Shown piece by piece: positions 1,869 through 44,782 of a DNA stretch of 64,000 nt; the first letter of the stretch is position 1; each line of letters begins with the position of its first letter. The notes below the pieces were generated by a model that searched no databases, was not told where the DNA came from, and was given only the letters and a program-made list of their open reading frames with translations. Location: positions 1 to 64,000 of the forward strand of contig JAKVAQ010000015.1 of assembly GCA_022447665.1 (NCBI GenBank). The letters run 5' to 3'. This DNA is from Crocinitomicaceae bacterium. Its GTDB lineage: Bacteria > Bacteroidota > Bacteroidia > Flavobacteriales_D > Crocinitomicaceae. The position numbers and the translations under genes were made by a program.

Positions 1869-4800
1869 ATTAGGATTAAAATCATACTGACCCTCTTCTT
1901 AATTTGCCTATTTGGCCTAGGTTATTCTCAGGTTACTTGGGATGGAGGAGCTGGTACGAATAACTGGAACGATGCGGCAAACTGGAATCCAGACGGGGTT
2001 CCAGGAGATGATAACGATGTTGTAATTAATGGCGATGATGTTGGTGGTAATATAACTGTGGATTTCTCTGTTACTGACTCTTGTAGGTCTTTACAAATGA
2101 TTACTGACAACGCAAACGGTCGTTCTGTATCTCTAAATATTCTTAGTGGTTCGCGACTGGGTATTCGTGTCGACATGAACATGGACGACAGGAATAACAA
2201 TACCAATACGGTTGCTGTAACTGTTTCTCAGGCTTCGCAATTAATTGTAGGTGGTAATCTTGAAATGGATAAAGACAATGGTGATCAAAACGGTAACGAT
2301 ATGACCATTACAGTGTCTGATGATTCGAGGGTTGATGTTATTGGTAATTTATCGCTGATCTGTACTGAAGGAAATCCAGACAATGATTTCGGTATTACGT
2401 TAACGGAGAATTCAATATTCAATGCGAATTCGGTTTCAGGAACTTTGAATGATGATATCCAAGGTATTTCACTTATTAGCTTAAATGCTACTGGTGTAGC
2501 CGGTGATGCTGCTATTTTTAATGTGACCAACGATTTTGATTTAGATGTTGCAGGTAATCAATTTGATATTGAATTTGATTTGGATTACAGCGCTCAGCTT
2601 ATTGTTGGAAATGATTTTAATGTTTCGGCGAATGGAAATGATGATGGCAGAAACTATCGATGGCATTTGGATCGTGACGCTTTGATCAATGTTGGAAACG
2701 ACTTTGTAGTTAATGCACGTCCACGAAGCAATGGGGATATTGAATTTCATTTGAATCAAACCACTGCTGGTGCATTAGGGGCGCAAATAATTGTTGGGAA
2801 CAATATCTCATGGTCTAATAACGCAGACAATGACGGTAGAAATCTAGAGGTGTTCTTAGCTGATGACGCCTTGATTGATGTTGAGGGAGATTTTGCCATT
2901 GATATGGATGGTTCAGGAAGCAACGAAGATCTTCTTATTCAATTGGCTGATAATGCTGTTATCGATGTTGAAGGTAATATTGATTGGATTGTCAACGATG
3001 GAGATAATGTTGACTTCCGATTAACAATGAATGATCAAGCTCAAATTCTGGCCGGTGATGCCGTTACCGATGTTTTTAGTGTTGATATGATTAACGGATG
3101 TGGGGAGTTCAGAATCTTTATGAATGAAGATGCGACGATAAATGCTGCGGGAGATATTGATTTCGATTATGATGGTGATTTAACCTCTGCCATACAAATG
3201 AACCAGACCGCTGCAGGTACAGGTTTAGATGCGCGAATTCTTTGTGGAAGGGATTTTTCATGGGGTGCAATTGATGGAGATGACTTTGAAATAAGAATGA
3301 GTGAAGATGCATTTATAGATGTCGAAGGCACTTTTCTATTCTCAGCAACGGGTACAGACGGTGATGATGATGATCAAGAGTTTGTTTTGAATGATAACGC
3401 GCTAATTGATGTTGAAGATGGTATGAGTTTTACCATTAATGATAATAGTAGAGTGGACCTAAGATTTGATTTAACGGATAATGCTCAAATCTTGTGTGGT
3501 AATGCTTTGGGAGAAGATTTCACGGTGAATATGCAAAATGGTCCTGGCGAGTTTGATATTGAGCTGGATGGGGATGCGTTGCTAAACGTTGCTGGAGATT
3601 TTGATTTAACCCATGATGGTGACGAGCCTATACGTATTCATTTGAACGAAAATACTGCAGGTGTAGGTGCTGATGCCCAGTTTTTAGTGGGTGAAAATTT
3701 TACAATATCCCAAGTCGATGGAGATCAATGTCAAATCTTTTTGAATGAGGGAGCTGATATAATTATACCTGGTGACTTAACTACAACGCATAGTAATATA
3801 GATGATGGTGGCGATGATATAACCTTCGATTTGGCAAATACTTCAGCTATAGATGTGGGGGGAAGTTTTACAACCACACTCAATGATGATTCTGGAGTTG
3901 ATATCAATCTATTCTTATCTGGAACCTCAGAGCTGAACGTAGGTGATGCAATTACAGACTCACTTTATCTAGGCATTTTAAATGGAGCAACAATCTTCAT
4001 TCGAATGGATGATTCTCCTGTGATCAATGTAACAGGGAATATTCAATTGCAACAAGAAGATGATGATGATAATGATCAGATTCAGGTTTACCTAAATCAA
4101 ACCACGAGTGGGGCTGGAGTTGATGCTGTAATTAATGCTGGAGGATACTTTTATTCAAACATGTCTGATGATGCAGGACGGACCGAGTTTTTATTAGATG
4201 CAGATGCTGAATTAAATATAGGTACTGATTTTATTGTTGATCATATAGGAACTAGAGAAGTGCGAATATATTTGAATAATACCGCCGATGGTGATGCGGC
4301 CGATGTGCAAATAAGCATCGGGGATGATTTTATCATCACGAATGCGGATGGTGAGGATTTGCAAATTTTCTTGCGTCAAGATGCCGACATAATTGTTTCT
4401 GACGATTTTGAAATCAATGCATCAAATCAAGATGGGAACAACGATGATATTGATATCGAGCTTGCGAACAATTCATCTGTAGATGTGGATGGAAGTTTTA
4501 CAGTTGTCGAAAATGACAACTCTAATATTGATATTGTTTTGGATATGAATGGTACGTCAACTTTTAATGTTGGAACTACAATAGCGGATACAATGTATTT
4601 AACCATTGAGGATGGATCGGTTATTCGAATTGATTTAGATGATGATGCCACGTTAGATGTTTCAGGAAGATTACATCTGCACAATCAAGATGCTGGCAAT
4701 GGCGACAACATCGAAGTAGATCTTAATCAAAACTCAGCGACCGAAACAAATGATGCTCGCTTAAATGTAGGAAACGATATGTGGTTTATTATTGACAATG

Positions 4801-7800
4801 CTGCAGTTGGAGGAGAGGTTGATTTATTGATAGATCACGATGCACAAGTCAATATTACAGGTGATTTAAGAATTGATCAAAACGGTGATGGTAACATAGA
4901 TATATGGTTAAATGAGGCCTTTGATGGGGGAGCACTTGATGCTCAACTAGTAGTTTCTGAAGATGTGATAATTAATAAAACGGATGGTGATTTAGGAAGA
5001 ATTTTCCTTGATCAAGGTTCTCTATTTGATGTAGAAGGTGATTTTACTTATTTGGCCTCTAATATGGATGGAGATGATGATGATCAAGAAATTCAACTTG
5101 AAGGAAGCAGTCAATTAGATGTTGAGGGTGACTTTCTGTTTCAAATGAACGATGCTTCAAGAGTAGATCTTCGAGTAGACATGAGCGGAACTTCGCAATT
5201 TACCGTTGGTACCACTGTAGCCAACACTACAACATTTAATGTGATTAACGGATACGAGATTGATGTTGAGATTGATGAAGATGCGAGTTTCAGTGTTTCT
5301 GGTGATGTTATAATGAATAAAGCAGGGAATGAAGAGATTCTAATTCACCTAAATCAGATTGTAGATGGTTCAGCTGCAGACGCTCAGTTTAACATTGCAC
5401 GAGATTTGATAATGACTAAAACGGATGGCGACCAGGTACAGGTCCATGGGAATGATGGTTCGGATTTAATTATTGGGAGAAATCTTTCTATTACAACTTC
5501 TAATACGGATGATAATGGGGATGATGTGCGATTCTTTTTTGGTGATAATGCTGATCTAACCGTAGGTGGTGATTTTACTGCTGTTCTAAACGAGAACCCT
5601 GGCAGATTGGTTGATTTATTCATTAGAGCAGATAGTAACGCAGTTATAGATATTGCTGGTGATGTAGATATTGATTTGACAAATGCTGAAGATCTTGAGT
5701 TAACCTTAAACAGTTCTGGACAGTTCAATTGTACCAACTTTAATATGGGTAATACCACAGGAAGTAGAGGGGTTTATTTTGATTTAAACGGGAATGGTGC
5801 TTTCAATGCATCTGGAAACTTTAGGTCTGAAAACCTGAGTACAACAAATACGCCTACTGCTACATCTATTCGTATTGATGAAGATGCTAGTTTAACAACT
5901 GGTGGAGATTTTGAATTGATCCATAATGGAAATGACGATTGCCTAATCTGCTTAAACCAGAATGTTGCAGGAACAACTACAGATGCACGGTTAATTATTG
6001 GTGGAGATTTCATTGTGGACAAAGACGAGGGAGATGATCTAAACATGTTAGTGAACGAGGATGCTCAGGTAACTGTCGCAGGAAATCTAACTTGGGATTA
6101 TGGAGACACTGAAGGTACCAATGATGGACTCAGAATTCGTTTAGATGATAATAGCGCGGTCGATATTGAGGGTTCATTGAATATTAATTATAACAACTCA
6201 ACCGCGGGAGGTGTAGAGCCATTTGAACTAACCTTAAACAATACCTCTCGTTTCGATGTTGGTCCTGCTGCAGGTCCTTATACTATAGAGTCAGCAACTT
6301 TTATTTTTGCAGCTGGTGGGAATGTTCAGGGAAGAATGAACGGTACCTCTCAAATGAATGTTTACGGTGATTTAGTTTTTACAAAGCAAGATGTTGATGA
6401 TTGGAATTTTAGAATGAATAATGCCGATGGAACCAATGCAGAGTTAAATGTGTTTAATGATCTTGTTCTGGATAACGTGGATGATGATGAAATTATGGAC
6501 TTTGAGTTGAATCAAGATGCTACCTTAGATGTTGATGGGAATATTGATATTACTGGAGCGCTTTCAGCAGGTAAAATTGAACTAGAATTAAACAATACCT
6601 CAGAAATTCAAATTGAGGGTAATTTTCTGCGTAATCCAACACCGAATAAGTTTGGGATTTTAGACTGTAATGGTGCTTCTGAAGTAGAATATGATGGTGT
6701 TACCAATACGCAGCTTTTCGCTGAGGACGCAGGCGATGGAGGAGACTTTTTTGATTATCAAAACGTAACTGTAAACAATACCTTTGGAACATCTCCTCAA
6801 ATTACAATGGAAGGTCTTGCTACTGTTCATACGGGTGTTACTTTTGTTGATGGGGTTGTTGCAACTACATTAACAGATATTCTAGTTTTTGACAACGATG
6901 CGACTTCTACTGGTCCCTCAGATGTGTCTCATGTTGATGGTTGGGCAAGAAAGATTGGAGATGATGCTTTTGAATTTCCGGTTGGCGATATTGGTGTGTT
7001 TAGACCGATTTCAGTTTCAGCGCCTGGTGCAACTGCGGATCAATTTAGGGCGATTTATACAAGTGTTGATCCGAATGAAGATGGTTTTGACGATTCCGCT
7101 ATTGACCCAACAATAGATCATATAAGTAATTGTGAGTACTGGGAATTAGAGTTAGAAAACGGTACTCCAACAGTAAGCGTTACACTTAGTTATAAAGATT
7201 TTGATCCAAGTCGTGGGTGTAGTGGCGTTGTTTTTCAGCCAGATTTACTCGTCTCTCGTTGGGATGGTGCTGTCTGGCGTGATGAAGGGAATGGTGCAAC
7301 TGCTGGAATCCCTTCTGACGGCACAGTTACTTCTGCTGGAGGTATTTCTACTTTTTCACCTTTCACACTGGCTTCTACTACGCCAATCAATCCATTGCCA
7401 ATAGAGTTGCTTTCTTTTCAGGCAACAGCTCAAGATGATCATGTTCTTTTAGAATGGGTAACGGCATCAGAAAGAGATAATGATTATTTCACAATAGAGC
7501 GTTCAATTGATGGAATCAATTTTGAAGATGTTGGAGTTGTTGATGGTGCAGGAAATTCGAGCGTGACACTGGAATATGATTTAATAGATCCGAACCCTTA
7601 TTTAGGTTGGTCTTACTACCGCCTAAAGCAAACCGATTATAATGGTGAATTTTCATATTCAGAACCAGATGCTGTTTATTTTGGAACAGAATCTGAATTC
7701 ACGATCTATCCGAATCCACTTCTTAAGTCTGGGCAAGAATTAACCATTATTTCAAACTTTGAAATTAATGACAAAACTTCAATTATTGTAATGGATGCTA

Positions 7801-7949
7801 AAGGGACTGTTGTTAGTCAGAATGTGCAACGAACTTACTTAGGTGACCGAACTAAGCTCATTAACCTTTCGCTTTCTCATGGTGTGTATTTTATCTCCAT
7901 TACTCGTCCAAATGGTGAGGTAGTTACCGCAAAACTTGTGGTGATTTAA
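1869..7949 (+). CDS. giant Asp/Asn-rich repeat surface protein with T9SS C-terminal domain
   Basis: About 2026 residues if read from the ATT at 1869. A clear signal peptide (RIKIILTLFLICLFGLGYSQ) comes before the GTG at 2058, which is the first conventional start and would delete it. The mature N-terminus (WDGGAGTNNWNDAANWNPD...VPGDDNDVVI) is the opening motif common in repeat adhesins of this phylum. Then follow about 1500 residues of acidic beta-strand repeats of the type 'D.A.IDVEGDF......DG.D..I.LN', with almost no Lys or Arg, suggesting a calcium-stabilised beta-helix or beta-roll (inference). Near the end is a domain starting LPIELLSFQA and containing LEWVTASERDNDYFTIERS, typical of Bacteroidota secreted proteins. 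Last comes a type A sorting domain (FTIYPNPL...). It is probably exported by the T9SS and held on the surface as an adhesin or coat protein. The start codon is the main uncertainty. Confidence 0.85.
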   Translation: MRIKIILTLFLICLFGLGYSQVTWDGGAGTNNWNDAANWNPDGVPGDDNDVVINGDDVGGNITVDFSVTDSCRSLQMITDNANGRSVSLNILSGSRLGIRVDMNMDDRNNNTNTVAVTVSQASQLIVGGNLEMDKDNGDQNGNDMTITVSDDSRVDVIGNLSLICTEGNPDNDFGITLTENSIFNANSVSGTLNDDIQGISLISLNATGVAGDAAIFNVTNDFDLDVAGNQFDIEFDLDYSAQLIVGNDFNVSANGNDDGRNYRWHLDRDALINVGNDFVVNARPRSNGDIEFHLNQTTAGALGAQIIVGNNISWSNNADNDGRNLEVFLADDALIDVEGDFAIDMDGSGSNEDLLIQLADNAVIDVEGNIDWIVNDGDNVDFRLTMNDQAQILAGDAVTDVFSVDMINGCGEFRIFMNEDATINAAGDIDFDYDGDLTSAIQMNQTAAGTGLDARILCGRDFSWGAIDGDDFEIRMSEDAFIDVEGTFLFSATGTDGDDDDQEFVLNDNALIDVEDGMSFTINDNSRVDLRFDLTDNAQILCGNALGEDFTVNMQNGPGEFDIELDGDALLNVAGDFDLTHDGDEPIRIHLNENTAGVGADAQFLVGENFTISQVDGDQCQIFLNEGADIIIPGDLTTTHSNIDDGGDDITFDLANTSAIDVGGSFTTTLNDDSGVDINLFLSGTSELNVGDAITDSLYLGILNGATIFIRMDDSPVINVTGNIQLQQEDDDDNDQIQVYLNQTTSGAGVDAVINAGGYFYSNMSDDAGRTEFLLDADAELNIGTDFIVDHIGTREVRIYLNNTADGDAADVQISIGDDFIITNADGEDLQIFLRQDADIIVSDDFEINASNQDGNNDDIDIELANNSSVDVDGSFTVVENDNSNIDIVLDMNGTSTFNVGTTIADTMYLTIEDGSVIRIDLDDDATLDVSGRLHLHNQDAGNGDNIEVDLNQNSATETNDARLNVGNDMWFIIDNAAVGGEVDLLIDHDAQVNITGDLRIDQNGDGNIDIWLNEAFDGGALDAQLVVSEDVIINKTDGDLGRIFLDQGSLFDVEGDFTYLASNMDGDDDDQEIQLEGSSQLDVEGDFLFQMNDASRVDLRVDMSGTSQFTVGTTVANTTTFNVINGYEIDVEIDEDASFSVSGDVIMNKAGNEEILIHLNQIVDGSAADAQFNIARDLIMTKTDGDQVQVHGNDGSDLIIGRNLSITTSNTDDNGDDVRFFFGDNADLTVGGDFTAVLNENPGRLVDLFIRADSNAVIDIAGDVDIDLTNAEDLELTLNSSGQFNCTNFNMGNTTGSRGVYFDLNGNGAFNASGNFRSENLSTTNTPTATSIRIDEDASLTTGGDFELIHNGNDDCLICLNQNVAGTTTDARLIIGGDFIVDKDEGDDLNMLVNEDAQVTVAGNLTWDYGDTEGTNDGLRIRLDDNSAVDIEGSLNINYNNSTAGGVEPFELTLNNTSRFDVGPAAGPYTIESATFIFAAGGNVQGRMNGTSQMNVYGDLVFTKQDVDDWNFRMNNADGTNAELNVFNDLVLDNVDDDEIMDFELNQDATLDVDGNIDITGALSAGKIELELNNTSEIQIEGNFLRNPTPNKFGILDCNGASEVEYDGVTNTQLFAEDAGDGGDFFDYQNVTVNNTFGTSPQITMEGLATVHTGVTFVDGVVATTLTDILVFDNDATSTGPSDVSHVDGWARKIGDDAFEFPVGDIGVFRPISVSAPGATADQFRAIYTSVDPNEDGFDDSAIDPTIDHISNCEYWELELENGTPTVSVTLSYKDFDPSRGCSGVVFQPDLLVSRWDGAVWRDEGNGATAGIPSDGTVTSAGGISTFSPFTLASTTPINPLPIELLSFQATAQDDHVLLEWVTASERDNDYFTIERSIDGINFEDVGVVDGAGNSSVTLEYDLIDPNPYLGWSYYRLKQTDYNGEFSYSEPDAVYFGTESEFTIYPNPLLKSGQELTIISNFEINDKTSIIVMDAKGTVVSQNVQRTYLGDRTKLINLSLSHGVYFISITRPNGEVVTAKLVVI
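2751..6010 (+). repeat. higher-order protein repeats inside the giant gene
   Basis: A landmark motif of the form LNQ-T-AG--DA-I-VG--F recurs nine times, its Leu (or Met) codon at 2751, 3198, 3642, 4092, 4272, 4722, 4908, 5349 and 5952. The spacings are 447, 444, 450, 180, 450, 186, 441 and 603 nt. This gives a super-repeat of about 149 residues, with extra units of about 60 residues inserted twice. Smaller rungs of about 25-30 residues fill each unit. The repeats are diverged at DNA level, so this is an old array. Confidence 0.75.
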
Positions 7950-8021: not shown

Positions 8022-8053
8022 AAATCGCGCTCATCAAGAGCGCGATTTTTTTT
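8022..8053 (+). terminator. intrinsic terminator of the giant gene
   Basis: Perfect 11-bp stem AAATCGCGCTC / GAGCGCGATTT with a 5-nt loop, followed by a T-run to 8053. It separates the giant gene from the mraZ promoter region. Confidence 0.9.
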
Positions 8054-8228: not shown

Positions 8229-8265
8229 TAATCTTCTCTTTATTTTTACATCCGATTAATAGTTG

Positions 8266-8745
8266 ATGGCAAATTTGGTAGGTGAATATGAGTGCAAGCT
8301 TGATGCGAAAGGTCGCTTCTTGTTTCCTGTTGCTTTAAGGAAGCAAATTGCGAGTTCAACGCCAGAACGTTATGAGGATGGGGTGTTTATGGTGAACAAA
8401 GGGTTTGAGAATTGCTTAACCATTTATCCGATGCATGAATGGGATAAAGTTTCGAGTAAGATTTCAAAACTCAATCTTTTTAAGCCTAAAAACCGAATGT
8501 TCTACAGGCTCTTTCATCAGGGTGCTAAAGAACTTAATCTCGATAAAACAAATCGACTTTTAATCCCAACAGCGCTAATGGAGCGCATAGGTTTAAAAAA
8601 GGACATTATGCTAACTGCTTATAATGACCGCGTCGAAGTTTGGGATCGAGAGGAATACATGGCATTGATGAATGAAAACATGTCTGATTTCGCTGACCTA
8701 GCCGATGAGGTTATGGGCGAAATTGATGACGTGGATGATAAATAA
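8266..8745 (+). CDS. mraZ: transcriptional regulator MraZ
   Basis: 159 residues from ATG 8266; a TTG three bases earlier is the alternative. The protein begins MANLVGEYECKLDAKGRFLF, the first of two SpoVT/AbrB-like DNA-binding repeats. The second is around residues 80-125 (ELNLDKTNRLLIPTALMERI). Length is normal for the family. MraZ forms ring oligomers that bind tandem GTG-type boxes and control the division and cell-wall cluster; three such boxes lie 38-62 bp upstream. The 3' end overlaps rsmH by 11 nt, so the two are translationally linked. MraZ heads the operon, as it does in most bacteria. Confidence 0.95.
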   Translation: MANLVGEYECKLDAKGRFLFPVALRKQIASSTPERYEDGVFMVNKGFENCLTIYPMHEWDKVSSKISKLNLFKPKNRMFYRLFHQGAKELNLDKTNRLLIPTALMERIGLKKDIMLTAYNDRVEVWDREEYMALMNENMSDFADLADEVMGEIDDVDDK

Positions 8746-9640
8746 CTATCATGATCCTGTACTGCTGAAAGAGTCGCTTGACGGCTTAGATATTCAGGGC
8801 GACGACGTGATAGTAGACGTGACTTTTGGTGGTGGAGGTCATTCCCGTGAAATTTTAAATCTACTCTCCAACAAGGGCTTGTTGTTGGCTTTTGATCAGG
8901 ATAATGAAGCATTGGAAAATCAATGGGATGACGAGCGATTGCTTATCGCTCCTTCCAACTTCAGGTTCCTAATCAATTTCGTTAAGTTCTTTGATGTTTT
9001 TCCTGTAGATGGAGTTCTAGCAGATTTAGGAGTTTCATCTCATCAATTCGATATACCAGAAAGAGGGTTTTCAATTAGGAATTCTGGCGATCTAGACATG
9101 AGAATGAACCAAGATAGCAGTCTTACGGCTGCGAGGGTGGTGAATCAATATCAAGAAAAAGATCTCTATAGAATCTTCAATAATTATGCTGACATCAAAA
9201 ATGTCAAGCGATTAGTTAAGCATTTACAATCTTCTCGAAAGAATAGAAAAATCAATACTACTGGAGAGTTGGTGGGTGTCTTAGAGACGATTGCTCCTGG
9301 TAAAAGAGAGAATCAGTTTTACGCGCAAGTTTTTCAAGCGATAAGGATTGAGGTGAATGATGAGATGGGGGCGCTAAGAGATATGCTTCATCAAACAGCA
9401 AAAGCAATTCGGCCTGGGGGCAGATTGGTGGTGATTTCATATCACTCTATCGAAGATCGAATGGTGAAGAATTTTATTAGAACAGGAAATGTTGATGGCA
9501 AAGAGGAGAAGGATATATACGGAAATAACAATGCTGCTTTTAAAGCAATAACGAAAAAACCAATTATACCAACAGATGAGGAGATTGAAAGAAATCCTCG
9601 TGCAAGAAGTGCAAAAATGAGAGTGGCTGAAAAATTATGA
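8735..9640 (+). CDS. rsmH: 16S rRNA m4C1402 N4-methyltransferase RsmH
   Basis: 301 residues from ATG 8735, which gives the family N-terminus MINNYHDPVLLKESLD. An upstream ATG at 8705 would add ten atypical residues. The SAM-binding glycine loop GGGGHS is at residues 32-37, and VLADLGVSSHQFD and RPGGRLVVISYHSIEDR are further family signatures. RsmH methylates N4 of C1402 in the decoding centre of 16S rRNA. It overlaps mraZ by 11 nt and its TGA overlaps the ATG of the next gene (ATGA). It is the usual second gene of the dcw cluster. Confidence 0.97.
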   Translation: MINNYHDPVLLKESLDGLDIQGDDVIVDVTFGGGGHSREILNLLSNKGLLLAFDQDNEALENQWDDERLLIAPSNFRFLINFVKFFDVFPVDGVLADLGVSSHQFDIPERGFSIRNSGDLDMRMNQDSSLTAARVVNQYQEKDLYRIFNNYADIKNVKRLVKHLQSSRKNRKINTTGELVGVLETIAPGKRENQFYAQVFQAIRIEVNDEMGALRDMLHQTAKAIRPGGRLVVISYHSIEDRMVKNFIRTGNVDGKEEKDIYGNNNAAFKAITKKPIIPTDEEIERNPRARSAKMRVAEKL

Positions 9641-41177: not shown

Positions 41178-42800
41178 TTATTTCTTAATCAGTTTTTTAA
41201 TACCAATCATTTCACCTTTCTGGATTTCTAATAAATAGATTCCAGACTCAACAAATGAAATGTCAATTGAGGTGTTATCCGAGTTCGATTCTGTAAGAAC
41301 TACTTTTCCTTGAAGATCAGTAATCGTAATCGTGTATTCTCCTTCACCCTGAATTTCAAATGCTCCGTTTGAAGGGTTCGGATAAACGGTAAATCCAAAT
41401 TCTTCAATATCTGTAATTCCTACTTGAGAGGCAACTTGGAAAGTAATGGTATAGGTACATCCGTTAGCATCTGTAATCGTTACTTCATACGGCCCAGCAT
41501 CTAGACCAGACACGTCTTCTGTTGTTTCCCCATTATCCCATAGGAAGGTATAAGGAGCGGTTCCGCCAGAAGGTGTTAAATCAATACTTCCTGAACTTCC
41601 ACCGGCATCCATAATTGTAGTTGCTGTAGCACTTAGAGCAGCAGGCTCTTCGACCAATACAGAATCAGTTCCAATACATCCATCGTCATCGGTAACCACA
41701 ACAGTATAATACATTGTTCCGCTTAATCCAGTAATCGCAGCTGTTGTTGATGCTGCTCCATCATCCCATAAATAAGTCCAAGGACCAGTTCCTGTTGAAG
41801 CTGTTACTTCAGCGGATCCGTCTCCGTCACCATTACAGGTAACGTTTGTGGAATCCATTGTTAAACTCAATGAATCCAAAACAGTAATCGTAGTTTGGTA
41901 GTCAGAAGTACATCCACTAGGATCCGTAATCGTTAGTTCAACGTCATAAGTACCTGGCGATGTATAAGAATGAGATGGGTTTTCACTGTTATCAATTGGT
42001 GAACCATCGTCAAAATTCCATGACCATGACCAGTCATTTAAGTCTGAAGCAGAGGCGTCTGTAAATGCCACTGGCAAACCTGGACAAACCGATGCATCAT
42101 CTGCAGTGAAGTAAGCCGTTCTATCAAAACAAACCGCTGAGTAATTGTGAATACCACCGGTACTTCCAGTCCATCCCCAATGTACATTCGGATCTCCAGT
42201 AGGAGAACCTGTGATTTCATTTACAAGATCAATAGTTGTAGTCATTTCAGCAGTTCCATCTACTAATACTGTTAATAGATTAACTGCAGGCACCCACAAA
42301 ATTTGAACATCGTGCCAGTCACCATCTTCCAAGTTAGGAAGAGCGATTGGAGCAACAACGTTGTGATTGTTTTCACCATTGGAGTTCAAAGCAATATGAT
42401 CAGCAGCGATATCAGATGAACCACCAGCTGGATCAATTCCGGCTCCCGAATCAAACATATCAAACTCAATTCCTACTGAATTTGGTATTCCTTTATATCC
42501 AAGACCATTACCTCCACTAAATACAGGATGTCCGTATTCAGTTCCAGATTGTAATACGAACATTAATCCATCAGCACCCCATAAATCCGCATCACCGAAG
42601 TAAACGTTGAATTCGAAATTGAAATCTTCAGTTAAATCAATAGTTTGTGGACTCCAGATTTTTGAGTTCTGATCAAAAACTGGGAGGGACATTCGATAAC
42701 AATTACAAGGAAGTGAATCATGAGCTGCTCCGTCTATTGTCATTTGACCTAAGCTCAGTGAACTGGCGATTATTGCGCCAAAAAGTAAAATTCGTTTCAT
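41178..42800 (-). CDS. L-type lectin / PKD / SprB-repeat protein with T9SS domain
   Basis: 540 residues with a signal peptide (ends LSLGQ). The first 210 residues resemble an L-type (legume-like) lectin fold: FNFEFNVYFGDADLWGADGLMFVLQ, VGIEFDMFDSG, DIAADHIALNSNGE, DWHDVQILWVPAVNLLTVLVDG. Next is a PKD domain (WNFDDGSP...YTSPGTYDVELTITD), then two SprB-type repeats (TCNGDGDGSAEVTASTG.. and GGSSGSIDLTPSGG.., each with YLWD/FLWDNG), and the type A sorting domain (FTVYPNPSNGAFEI). Probably a secreted glycan-binding protein. The terminator at 41123-41158 follows it. Confidence 0.85.
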   Translation of the reverse strand: MKRILLFGAIIASSLSLGQMTIDGAAHDSLPCNCYRMSLPVFDQNSKIWSPQTIDLTEDFNFEFNVYFGDADLWGADGLMFVLQSGTEYGHPVFSGGNGLGYKGIPNSVGIEFDMFDSGAGIDPAGGSSDIAADHIALNSNGENNHNVVAPIALPNLEDGDWHDVQILWVPAVNLLTVLVDGTAEMTTTIDLVNEITGSPTGDPNVHWGWTGSTGGIHNYSAVCFDRTAYFTADDASVCPGLPVAFTDASASDLNDWSWSWNFDDGSPIDNSENPSHSYTSPGTYDVELTITDPSGCTSDYQTTITVLDSLSLTMDSTNVTCNGDGDGSAEVTASTGTGPWTYLWDDGAASTTAAITGLSGTMYYTVVVTDDDGCIGTDSVLVEEPAALSATATTIMDAGGSSGSIDLTPSGGTAPYTFLWDNGETTEDVSGLDAGPYEVTITDANGCTYTITFQVASQVGITDIEEFGFTVYPNPSNGAFEIQGEGEYTITITDLQGKVVLTESNSDNTSIDISFVESGIYLLEIQKGEMIGIKKLIKK

Positions 42801-44164: not shown

Positions 44165-44782
44165 TTATTCAATGATTCCTTGCTGGTGTAGCGCTGAAAT
44201 AAAGACTGGTATGAACAATACGGCTAATCTATATTCAATAGGATTTGAACTCACGAATTCGCCGTAACCCCTCCATTGATCGAAGTCTTCAGAGAAATTT
44301 GTATTCATATCCAAAACATCGGTTCCACCTATAAACACATCCCAATTATCCCAATCTTCAGAGAAGGAGGTTTGAACATCGGCATGCCAAGAAGAGCCCA
44401 TATCGTCAATGTCCCAATTGTCCCAATTCTCTGAAAAAGAAGTACGCATCTGAATGGTATAGTCAGACGTTATTAAACTCCAATTATCCCAATCTTCAGA
44501 AAAGCTCGTTCGTATATCTCCGTTGAGACCAGGCAGTGAAAAATCCCAATTGTCCCAATCTTCAGAAAATGATGTTCGCACTGTTATAATGGTGTCTGGA
44601 ATTTCAACACGCCAGTTATCCCAATCTTCAGAAAAGTTTGTGTACATGCTGGCATCTGCAGATGGGGGAGTCCAAGTTCCTCCGCCTCCTGTTCCTCCTG
44701 TTCCACCGCTTGGTGTTGGGGCCGGATCTTTAGCACAACCGGTTAAGAATAGAAGAGAAATTATCAGGACGAAATGTTTCAT
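44165..44782 (-). CDS. lipoprotein with six FSEDWDNW repeats
   Basis: 205 residues. Lipoprotein signal MKHFVLIISLLFLTGC (Cys16), then a Gly/Pro linker, then six tandem units of 22-24 residues: each begins with TxFSEDWDNW (or NFSEDFDQW in the last) and ends in a variable hydrophobic strand. The C-terminal about 30 residues (EYRLAVLFIPVFISALHQQG) include a hydrophobic segment of about 20 residues. No family is recognised. Tryptophan-rich WDNW cores with acidic residues suggest a repetitive beta structure on the outer membrane surface. Position between the MscS gene and other secreted proteins gives no clue to function. Confidence 0.8.
   Translation of the reverse strand: MKHFVLIISLLFLTGCAKDPAPTPSGGTGGTGGGGTWTPPSADASMYTNFSEDWDNWRVEIPDTIITVRTSFSEDWDNWDFSLPGLNGDIRTSFSEDWDNWSLITSDYTIQMRTSFSENWDNWDIDDMGSSWHADVQTSFSEDWDNWDVFIGGTDVLDMNTNFSEDFDQWRGYGEFVSSNPIEYRLAVLFIPVFISALHQQGIIE
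44270..44640 (-). repeat. tandem repeat array encoding FSEDWDNW units
   Basis: The DNA segment reading (on the plus strand) TCCCAATTATCCCAATCTTC and its near-identical copies recurs at about 44340, 44412, 44480, 44544 and 44611, with a diverged copy near 44270. The period is roughly 66-72 nt. Conservation is concentrated on the motif codons, while the bases between vary. Confidence 0.75.

Follow-up and report, generated by a model that had tools for sequence, protein, structure and literature searches.

The gliding adhesins that carry the SprB repeat (PF13573) are giant repetitive cargo of the type IX secretion system (T9SS). EtpA, an adhesin of enterotoxigenic E. coli that depends on two-partner secretion (TPS), is described in PMC11463764 as a three-sided beta-helix of ~25 nm with ~54 strands per face, in which three 228-residue repeats and a partial one comprise nine rungs each. 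Because EtpA has such repeats, the nesting of rungs within modules is a known design. A giant gene was analysed in a stretch of 64,000 nucleotides (nt), referred to as the window, from a Crocinitomicaceae bacterium (assembly GCA_022447665.1, contig JAKVAQ010000015.1, positions 1 to 64,000 of the forward strand). On the + strand its reading frame runs uninterrupted through about 2,030 codons, between nt 1854 and 7949, and encodes a strongly acidic protein of ~2,000 residues, hereafter the giant protein, with residue 1 placed at nt 1872 throughout. This gene probably encodes a beta-helix fibre that is exported by the T9SS to the surface, or released, and that likely serves as an adhesin or spacer.

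The giant protein is predicted to share with EtpA a parallel beta-helix that has three sides, about 50 rungs and nested super-repeats, whereas EtpA has modules of 228 residues and nine rungs and an N-terminal TPS domain in place of the five-rung modules and T9SS C-terminal domain found here. Like the SprB adhesins it is giant repetitive T9SS cargo, but PF13573, which is found in those adhesins, had no match in the giant protein at an expect value (E) of 1 or below. It resembles the RTX beta-roll proteins as an Asp/Gly-rich solenoid that is hypothetically cation-stabilised and differs from them in the absence of GGxGxD from 1,500 residues and in its T9SS C-terminus. No Pfam match at E ≤ 1 was obtained for cadherin domains or for the TPS/haemagglutination activity domain, while the same library detected the SprB repeat in the neighbouring gene at 41178-42800. 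An earlier note on this DNA had held that the nested periodicity was not that of RTX, SprB or cadherin repeats, and these searches agree. The giant protein looks less like a protein of a new kind than like a new, uncurated branch within an already known type of surface fibre, and it offers a source from which a clean, uncurated repeat family can be defined, as HMMs (hidden Markov models) can be built for both the rung and the five-rung module.

The features of the gene were as follows, all on the + strand.
1869..1931, signal-peptide-like N-terminus (RIKIILTLFLICLFGLGYSQ), judged by eye
1932..2150, N-terminal lead-in (beginning VTWDGGAGTNNWNDAANWNPDGVPGDDNDVVI)
2151..6671, array of about 51 putative beta-helix rungs of ~30 amino acids, from the motif chain
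2751..3197, superunit 1, rungs A-B-C-D-E, 149 amino acids
3198..3641, superunit 2, ABCDE, 148 amino acids
3642..4091, superunit 3, ABCDE, 150 amino acids
4092..4271, two-rung insertion of 60 amino acids whose landmark is A-like and whose second rung, by eye, resembles E
4272..4721, superunit 4, ABCDE, 150 amino acids
4722..4907, two-rung insertion, A and E, 62 amino acids
4908..5348, superunit 5, ABCDE, 147 amino acids
5349..5951, seven-rung variant with A, B, C, three other rungs and E, 201 amino acids
5952..6413, superunit 6, ABCDE, 154 amino acids
6414..6938, final rungs of the helix with its conserved C-terminal end
6939..7388, conserved C-terminal module with a borderline ZU5/GAIN/FIIND-like fold predicted by AlphaFold2 and with F|S-P in nt 7353-7361
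7704..7943, C-terminal sorting domain of T9SS type A (PF18962, TIGR04183)
8022..8048, terminator-like hairpin of 11 pairs and a T tract, 3' of the gene

The repeats had been reported as nine copies of a landmark at spacings of 447, 444, 450, 180, 450, 186, 441 and 603 nt, and all eight spacings were exact. The landmark, LNQ..G...DAQI or in its looser form LN(Q/E/N)...G...DA, began at residues 294, 443, 591, 741, 801, 951, 1013, 1160 and 1361 (nt 2751, 3198, 3642, 4092, 4272, 4722, 4908, 5349 and 5952), and a stricter single pattern recovered just five of the nine copies. The units of about 149 residues in the earlier note held up, as each consists of five rungs, while its half-sized insertions did not, the 180- and 186-nt pieces being two rungs. 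The base period of ~30 residues behind its 'IDVEGDF' rungs was likewise recovered, for example as ALIDVEGDFA and AVIDVEGNID, although the strict pattern [IV][DN]V[EGA]G[DN][FLI] occurred just twice and a looser form 27 times. The extreme Asp and Asn content was evident in residues 25-1560, with 15.5% Asp, 10.9% Asn and 301 Asp and Glu residues versus 52 Lys and Arg.

Similarity autocorrelation over residues 61-1560 gave z scores of 8.5 at lag 210, 7.0 at lag 30 and 5.6 at lag 148, relative to a maximum of 4.5 over all lags in 200 shuffles. The best higher-order lag was 210, equal to five plus two rungs, in two analyses and 148 in another. A chain of 52 rung motifs, searched with a pattern derived from the giant protein itself and with spacings of 24-36 allowed, scored 503 against a shuffle maximum of 383 (200 shuffles). 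These motifs started between residues 63 and 1577 at spacings of 26-36, the earliest of them being weak and the end of the array approximate.

Computation recovered the order of the repeats directly, the 149-residue period being five distinct rung types in the fixed order A-B-C-D-E. Complete ABCDE units numbered six in the giant protein and two in a related locus, L040, and the rung-class HMMs were trained on these same six and two units. By these models both rungs of the insertion at 4092..4271 scored as weak A only (2-3 bits). Identity was 22-45% among the eight units and 24-45% among those within the giant protein, and the unit alignment had six invariant columns, five of Gly and one of Asn. 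The unit tree contained no strongly supported branch, and the last unit of the giant protein leaned (80/84) towards the pair from L040. The landmark forms an extra loop (LNQ..G...DA) on the A rung, and on the D rung the loop between strands PB1 and PB2 is longer, so that a surface pattern would recur every five rungs. The array probably grew as entire modules and two-rung pieces were duplicated.

The fold of three consecutive units (nt 2745-4097), three of the six, was predicted with AlphaFold2 at a predicted local distance difference test score (pLDDT) of 87.8 and a predicted template modelling score of 0.89. The model was a solenoid of 45 strands, three per rung, with 15 four-residue PB1 strands placed 26-33 residues apart. 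The rung strands followed the patterns 'AxIDV' (PB1), 'xFxIxx' (PB2) and 'xIxIxL' (PB3), and in the model hydrophobic residues faced inward and turns rich in Asp, Asn and Gly faced outward, the loops being 23.1% Asp, 19.7% Gly and 13.9% Asn. A structural comparison with VIA-align 2 was run on 80 Foldseek candidates. The best match was EtpA (8vbb, Z 28.5) with a root-mean-square deviation (rmsd) of 2.9 over 371 residues and 13% identity, followed by Pontibacter CsgA (Z 24.6, but with an rmsd of 9.6), Vag8 (24.3) and a tailspike (21.6). Other matches, including pertactin, were lower than Vag8. A three-sided parallel beta-helix is thus predicted from the three units. The beta-rung solenoid proposed earlier was borne out by this model and the comparison, and a repeating rung geometry, the lack of which would have spoken against it, was present throughout the three units.

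The T9SS signal was found by computation, the C-terminal sorting domain scoring above both curated cut-offs (PF18962, 31 bits against 27; TIGR04183, 32.6 bits against 23). The T9SS translocon protein SprA is encoded in the genome (TIGR04189, 2409 bits), and the genome held at least 150 sorting-domain matches including the giant protein (150 of 150 scored among 208 candidates). The T9SS export suggested in the earlier note is supported by the domain together with SprA. The repeats matched no Pfam or NCBIfam family above a curated cut-off, whether the whole protein or single units were used. Within the repeats of the whole protein the only Pfam matches were GEVED (E 0.033, 15.4 bits against a cut-off of 24.4) and DUF6188 (E 0.099), and those of single units were weak and mixed, including Gp5_C (E 0.0014, one of eight), AIDA stalk (E 0.017, one of eight) and DUF4402 (two of eight). 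A sequence search of the PDB with the repeats returned nothing at E ≤ 0.1, and in the open PMC literature no paper was found whose title or the start of whose abstract describes the ABCDE repeat.

We propose that the protein would consist of a signal peptide, a lead-in, a continuous three-sided parallel beta-helix of ~50 rungs, the C-terminal module and the type A sorting domain. For the helix as a whole, the hand, the unbroken course and the length are extrapolated from the three modelled units, and at a rung pitch like that of other beta-helices the fibre would be about 25 nm long. The sorting domain would presumably be removed, leaving the fibre at the cell surface. By analogy with EtpA the fibre most likely acts as an adhesin that is both multivalent and polyanionic, or as a spacer at the surface, as the architecture is EtpA-like, an export signal is present and the repeats would be displayed many times over.

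Several points weigh against this proposal. The gene has no canonical start codon, so that it may contain a sequence error or be poorly expressed. The alignment supplied to AlphaFold2 for the repeats (A3) had 8 rows, one of which overlapped the target itself. Foldseek returned no significant PDB match (0 of 66 at E ≤ 0.001), its best being antigen 43 (7koh, E 0.029), and since Foldseek was non-significant by itself the fold comparison draws on the AlphaFold2 model and the second look with VIA-align. Single-rung HMMs did not recover the rung order in the relatives L041-L044, where none of 24 pairs of neighbouring rungs was in order, or in L045 (1 of 5) and L048 (0 of 1). Adhesion, finally, is argued by analogy only.

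Among the other explanations, a helix loaded with calcium or another divalent cation, in which stacked turn Asp residues would stiffen the fibre or hold a cation reservoir, is possible but doubtful. Asp was enriched in the loops of the model (23.1% of 208 loop residues versus 11.1% of 243 strand residues) and recurred at fixed rung positions, in 6 of 15 rungs at each of positions -2 and -3 before PB1, and DGD occurred 11 times where 3.4 were expected by chance, with none of 500 shuffles as high. A general link only is provided by T9SS mutants of Cytophaga hutchinsonii, for which PMC7906972 reports a defect in Ca2+ acquisition. The classical calcium motifs were however at chance in 1,500 residues (GGxGxD 0, DxDxDG 1 versus 0.5, DxNDN 0), DxDxD was found 9 times versus 5.5 with 54 of 500 shuffles as high, and the AlphaFold2 output places no metals. 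The acidity may instead be a lineage trait, because L041-L044, in which the five-rung order was unrecovered, were equally acidic (Asp 15.6-17.8% upstream of the C-terminal module, compared with 15.3% in the giant protein). The giant protein was fifth of 65 for both Asp and net charge in this upstream region, and the idea that it is the most acidic of the relatives was therefore rejected.

A polysaccharide-active beta-helix enzyme such as a lyase, an epimerase or a tailspike-like depolymerase, with its active site on the A-rung loops, would account for the many such enzymes among the structural neighbours (AlgE4, Z 19.9; polygalacturonase, 18.4; PL6 lyases, 14.5-16.0; HK620 tailspike, 17.6). 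It is improbable, as no enzyme family exceeded its cut-off in Pfam or NCBIfam and the units repeat at the low identity given above with only Gly and Asn invariant. Tailspikes belong to the same fold class, which would suit a chromosomal gene derived from the tail fibre or tailspike of a phage, but this is the least credible of the explanations considered, given that tblastn against 50,697 phage records gave no match at E ≤ 1e-5, that viral contigs gave 4 pattern matches and no confirmed relative, and that the gene has a T9SS sorting domain and lies just upstream of mraZ/rsmH. An assembly artefact in the repeats or a decaying gene might be read from the missing ATG, GTG or TTG at the N-terminus and from the frame-broken gene upstream. 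This is very unlikely in view of the single uninterrupted frame and the nearly full units present in other assemblies, and the units are not assembler copies, as their identity within the giant protein is too low.

Relatives of the surface fibre proposed here were sought with the repeats and with the C-terminal module. A profile of six giant-protein units and two from L012 matched 9 of 240 genomes in the family, 9 of 399 in the order and 2 of 395 in a sample of the phylum, the source genome included in each case. The matches in six genomes (G092, G164, G175, G289, G305 and G794) were weak and partial (E 4.5e-5 to 7.7e-4), and those in G092 and G289 were by eye other, non-acidic solenoids. A scan of genome contigs with the repeat region gave 93 pattern matches and no confirmed relative, and the named relatives (L040-L118) were found through the C-terminal module only. 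This second scan yielded 121 stretches that encode the module; the 79 loci retained from them were all labelled Bacteroidota and all aligned over the module. A T9SS type A domain was detected at E ≤ 0.001 in 73 of the 79 C-termini scanned, comprising the giant protein and 78 of the loci, L118 being excluded as it runs off its contig.

A whole-unit HMM built from the giant protein only matched L040 (E 3.1e-68), L045 (3.1e-27) and L048 (4.1e-21). All three contain one or more nearly full-length five-rung units, and no other of the 79 loci did. L040 is from Crocinitomicaceae, and L045 and L048 are from metagenome-assembled genomes labelled Bacteroidales. L041-L044 and L089 contained partial units. 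Because the best reversed decoy reached E 2.3e-4, matches weaker than ~1e-5 (for example L046, L051, L078, L081 and L110) were not counted. With single-rung HMMs, also from the giant protein only, the order was kept in all three adjacent pairs of L040.

The nested periodicity had been presented as unusual, a view that is weakened by the nine-rung repeats of EtpA and by the proteins sharing the C-terminal module. A super-period of z ≥ 7 was detected in 37 of 65 proteins, the giant protein included (shuffle maximum z 4.5), where the 65 are those of 80 in which 200 or more residues precede the module, 15 having been dropped. These are not independent cases because some of the proteins are closely related and several loci share a genome, and the super-periods were taken from sequence alone, with only some of the sequences read individually. 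In 13 of the 37 the top lag was 163-165 residues or double that, and in at least two, L078 and L089, the super-period was by eye due to other N-terminal domains. Judged from these periods, nested super-periods are common in this architecture. The 79 loci thus have in common with the giant protein the same module, mostly a T9SS type A tail and often nested super-periods, and differ from it in top lags such as 163-165 and in the rarity of nearly full ABCDE units. The 35 super-period proteins besides the giant protein and L040 contained 1.5-8.4% Asp. Nested super-repeats may be a common route to large exported repeat proteins in Bacteroidota. L078 and L089 carry a tandem array with a 136-residue period, followed by a very short helix of a handful of rungs by eye and the same module, and their short helices show that rung number varies.

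The C-terminal module, present in the giant protein and the 79 other Bacteroidota loci, was modelled with AlphaFold2 from 25 sequences (nt 6414-7421, pLDDT 91.4). The first part of the model continues the helix, and residues 176-325 matched ZU5, GAIN and FIIND domains. In VIA-align the NLRP1 FIIND (7crw, Z 8.1, rmsd 3.6, 122 residues) and the BAI3 GAIN domain (Z 8.1, 131 residues) were followed by CD97 (7.4-7.5) and the ankyrin ZU5 domain (7.0), the tool itself rating a Z of around 8 as borderline. Other folds scored as high on the model, namely 4wa0 (8.8) and SepA (8.5) on the helix part and Candida Awp1 (7.5) on most of it. Foldseek gave CD97 a probability of 0.91 but an E of 0.095, with 0 of 201 matches at E ≤ 0.001. 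The module had no consistent Pfam match (DUF5881, E 0.00072 in one of 25; YdcK solenoid in three of 25, best 0.084), no NCBIfam match in the five members scanned and no PDB sequence below E 0.9.

A conserved F-S-P sits just before the last strand of the module. The F and S were present in 59 of 80 proteins, a His in an upstream column in 36 and both in 33, the distance from His to FS being 24 residues in 23 of these 33 (Fisher p 9.5e-4 for the association, uncorrected for relatedness). The cleavage-site serine of human NLRP1 is residue 1213. PMC8081665 places P1214 next to the cleavage site of the human protein and reports for rat NLRP1 a cut between F968 and S969 and a catalytic H942, at a distance of 27 residues; CARD8 and NLRP1 are described as cleaving at SF/S in PMC3210808. 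A bacterial ZU5 domain as such is not new, since PMC3482391 reports such domains both in toxins and in large surface proteins of bacteria. The predicted fold and the F|S-P motif of the module make a link to the ZU5/GAIN autoproteolytic superfamily worth testing. The giant protein has TF|SP with a Glu at the aligned His column, so the pair of F|S motif and catalytic His was not found in it and autocleavage is not predicted. An unlikely extension would make these proteins a class of Bacteroidota T9SS fibres with a ZU5/FIIND-like autoprotease module, many of which would self-cleave at SF|SP, in the manner of NLRP1 and CARD8 at SF|S, hold the fibre non-covalently and shed it under force or on a signal, the giant protein then being a polyanionic branch in which His has become Glu and the fibre is fixed.

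At the 5' end of the giant gene an ATT at nt 1869, preceded by AAAAGGA, adjoins the signal-peptide-like stretch RIKIILTLFLICLFGLGYSQ, and the earliest ATG, GTG or TTG in frame was a GTG at 2058, downstream of that stretch. The ATT looks like the start, either as a rare AUU start or through a sequence error. The putative N-terminal Sec signal is a hydrophobic stretch recognised by eye only and lacks a canonical start codon. Between nt 1872 and 2750 no Pfam match was obtained at E ≤ 0.01, and lead-ins of the W..W..P..DDV type were also seen by eye in L012, L013 and L019-L021. The gene lies directly upstream of mraZ and rsmH (mraW) at 8263-9640 of the window, with the hairpin at 8022-8048 between them. 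Four terminator-like sites were found in the region versus 3.7 expected, which makes this weak evidence.

A lipoprotein-like gene (beginning MKSLEKLSLMLLVGGLVLASCKKEGC) occupies 236-1628 on the - strand and had no Pfam match at E ≤ 0.01. It is broken into two overlapping frames (735-1628 and 236-793), which suggests a frameshift or sequencing error. A lipoprotein-like open reading frame of 205 amino acids (44165-44782, - strand), without a Pfam match at E ≤ 0.01, contains by eye six copies of (T)(S/N)FSE(D/N)(W/F)D(N/Q)W at a spacing of ~25 residues. The gene mentioned above at 41178-42800 (- strand) encodes T9SS cargo with a legume-type lectin, PKD and SprB repeats and is a candidate adhesin.

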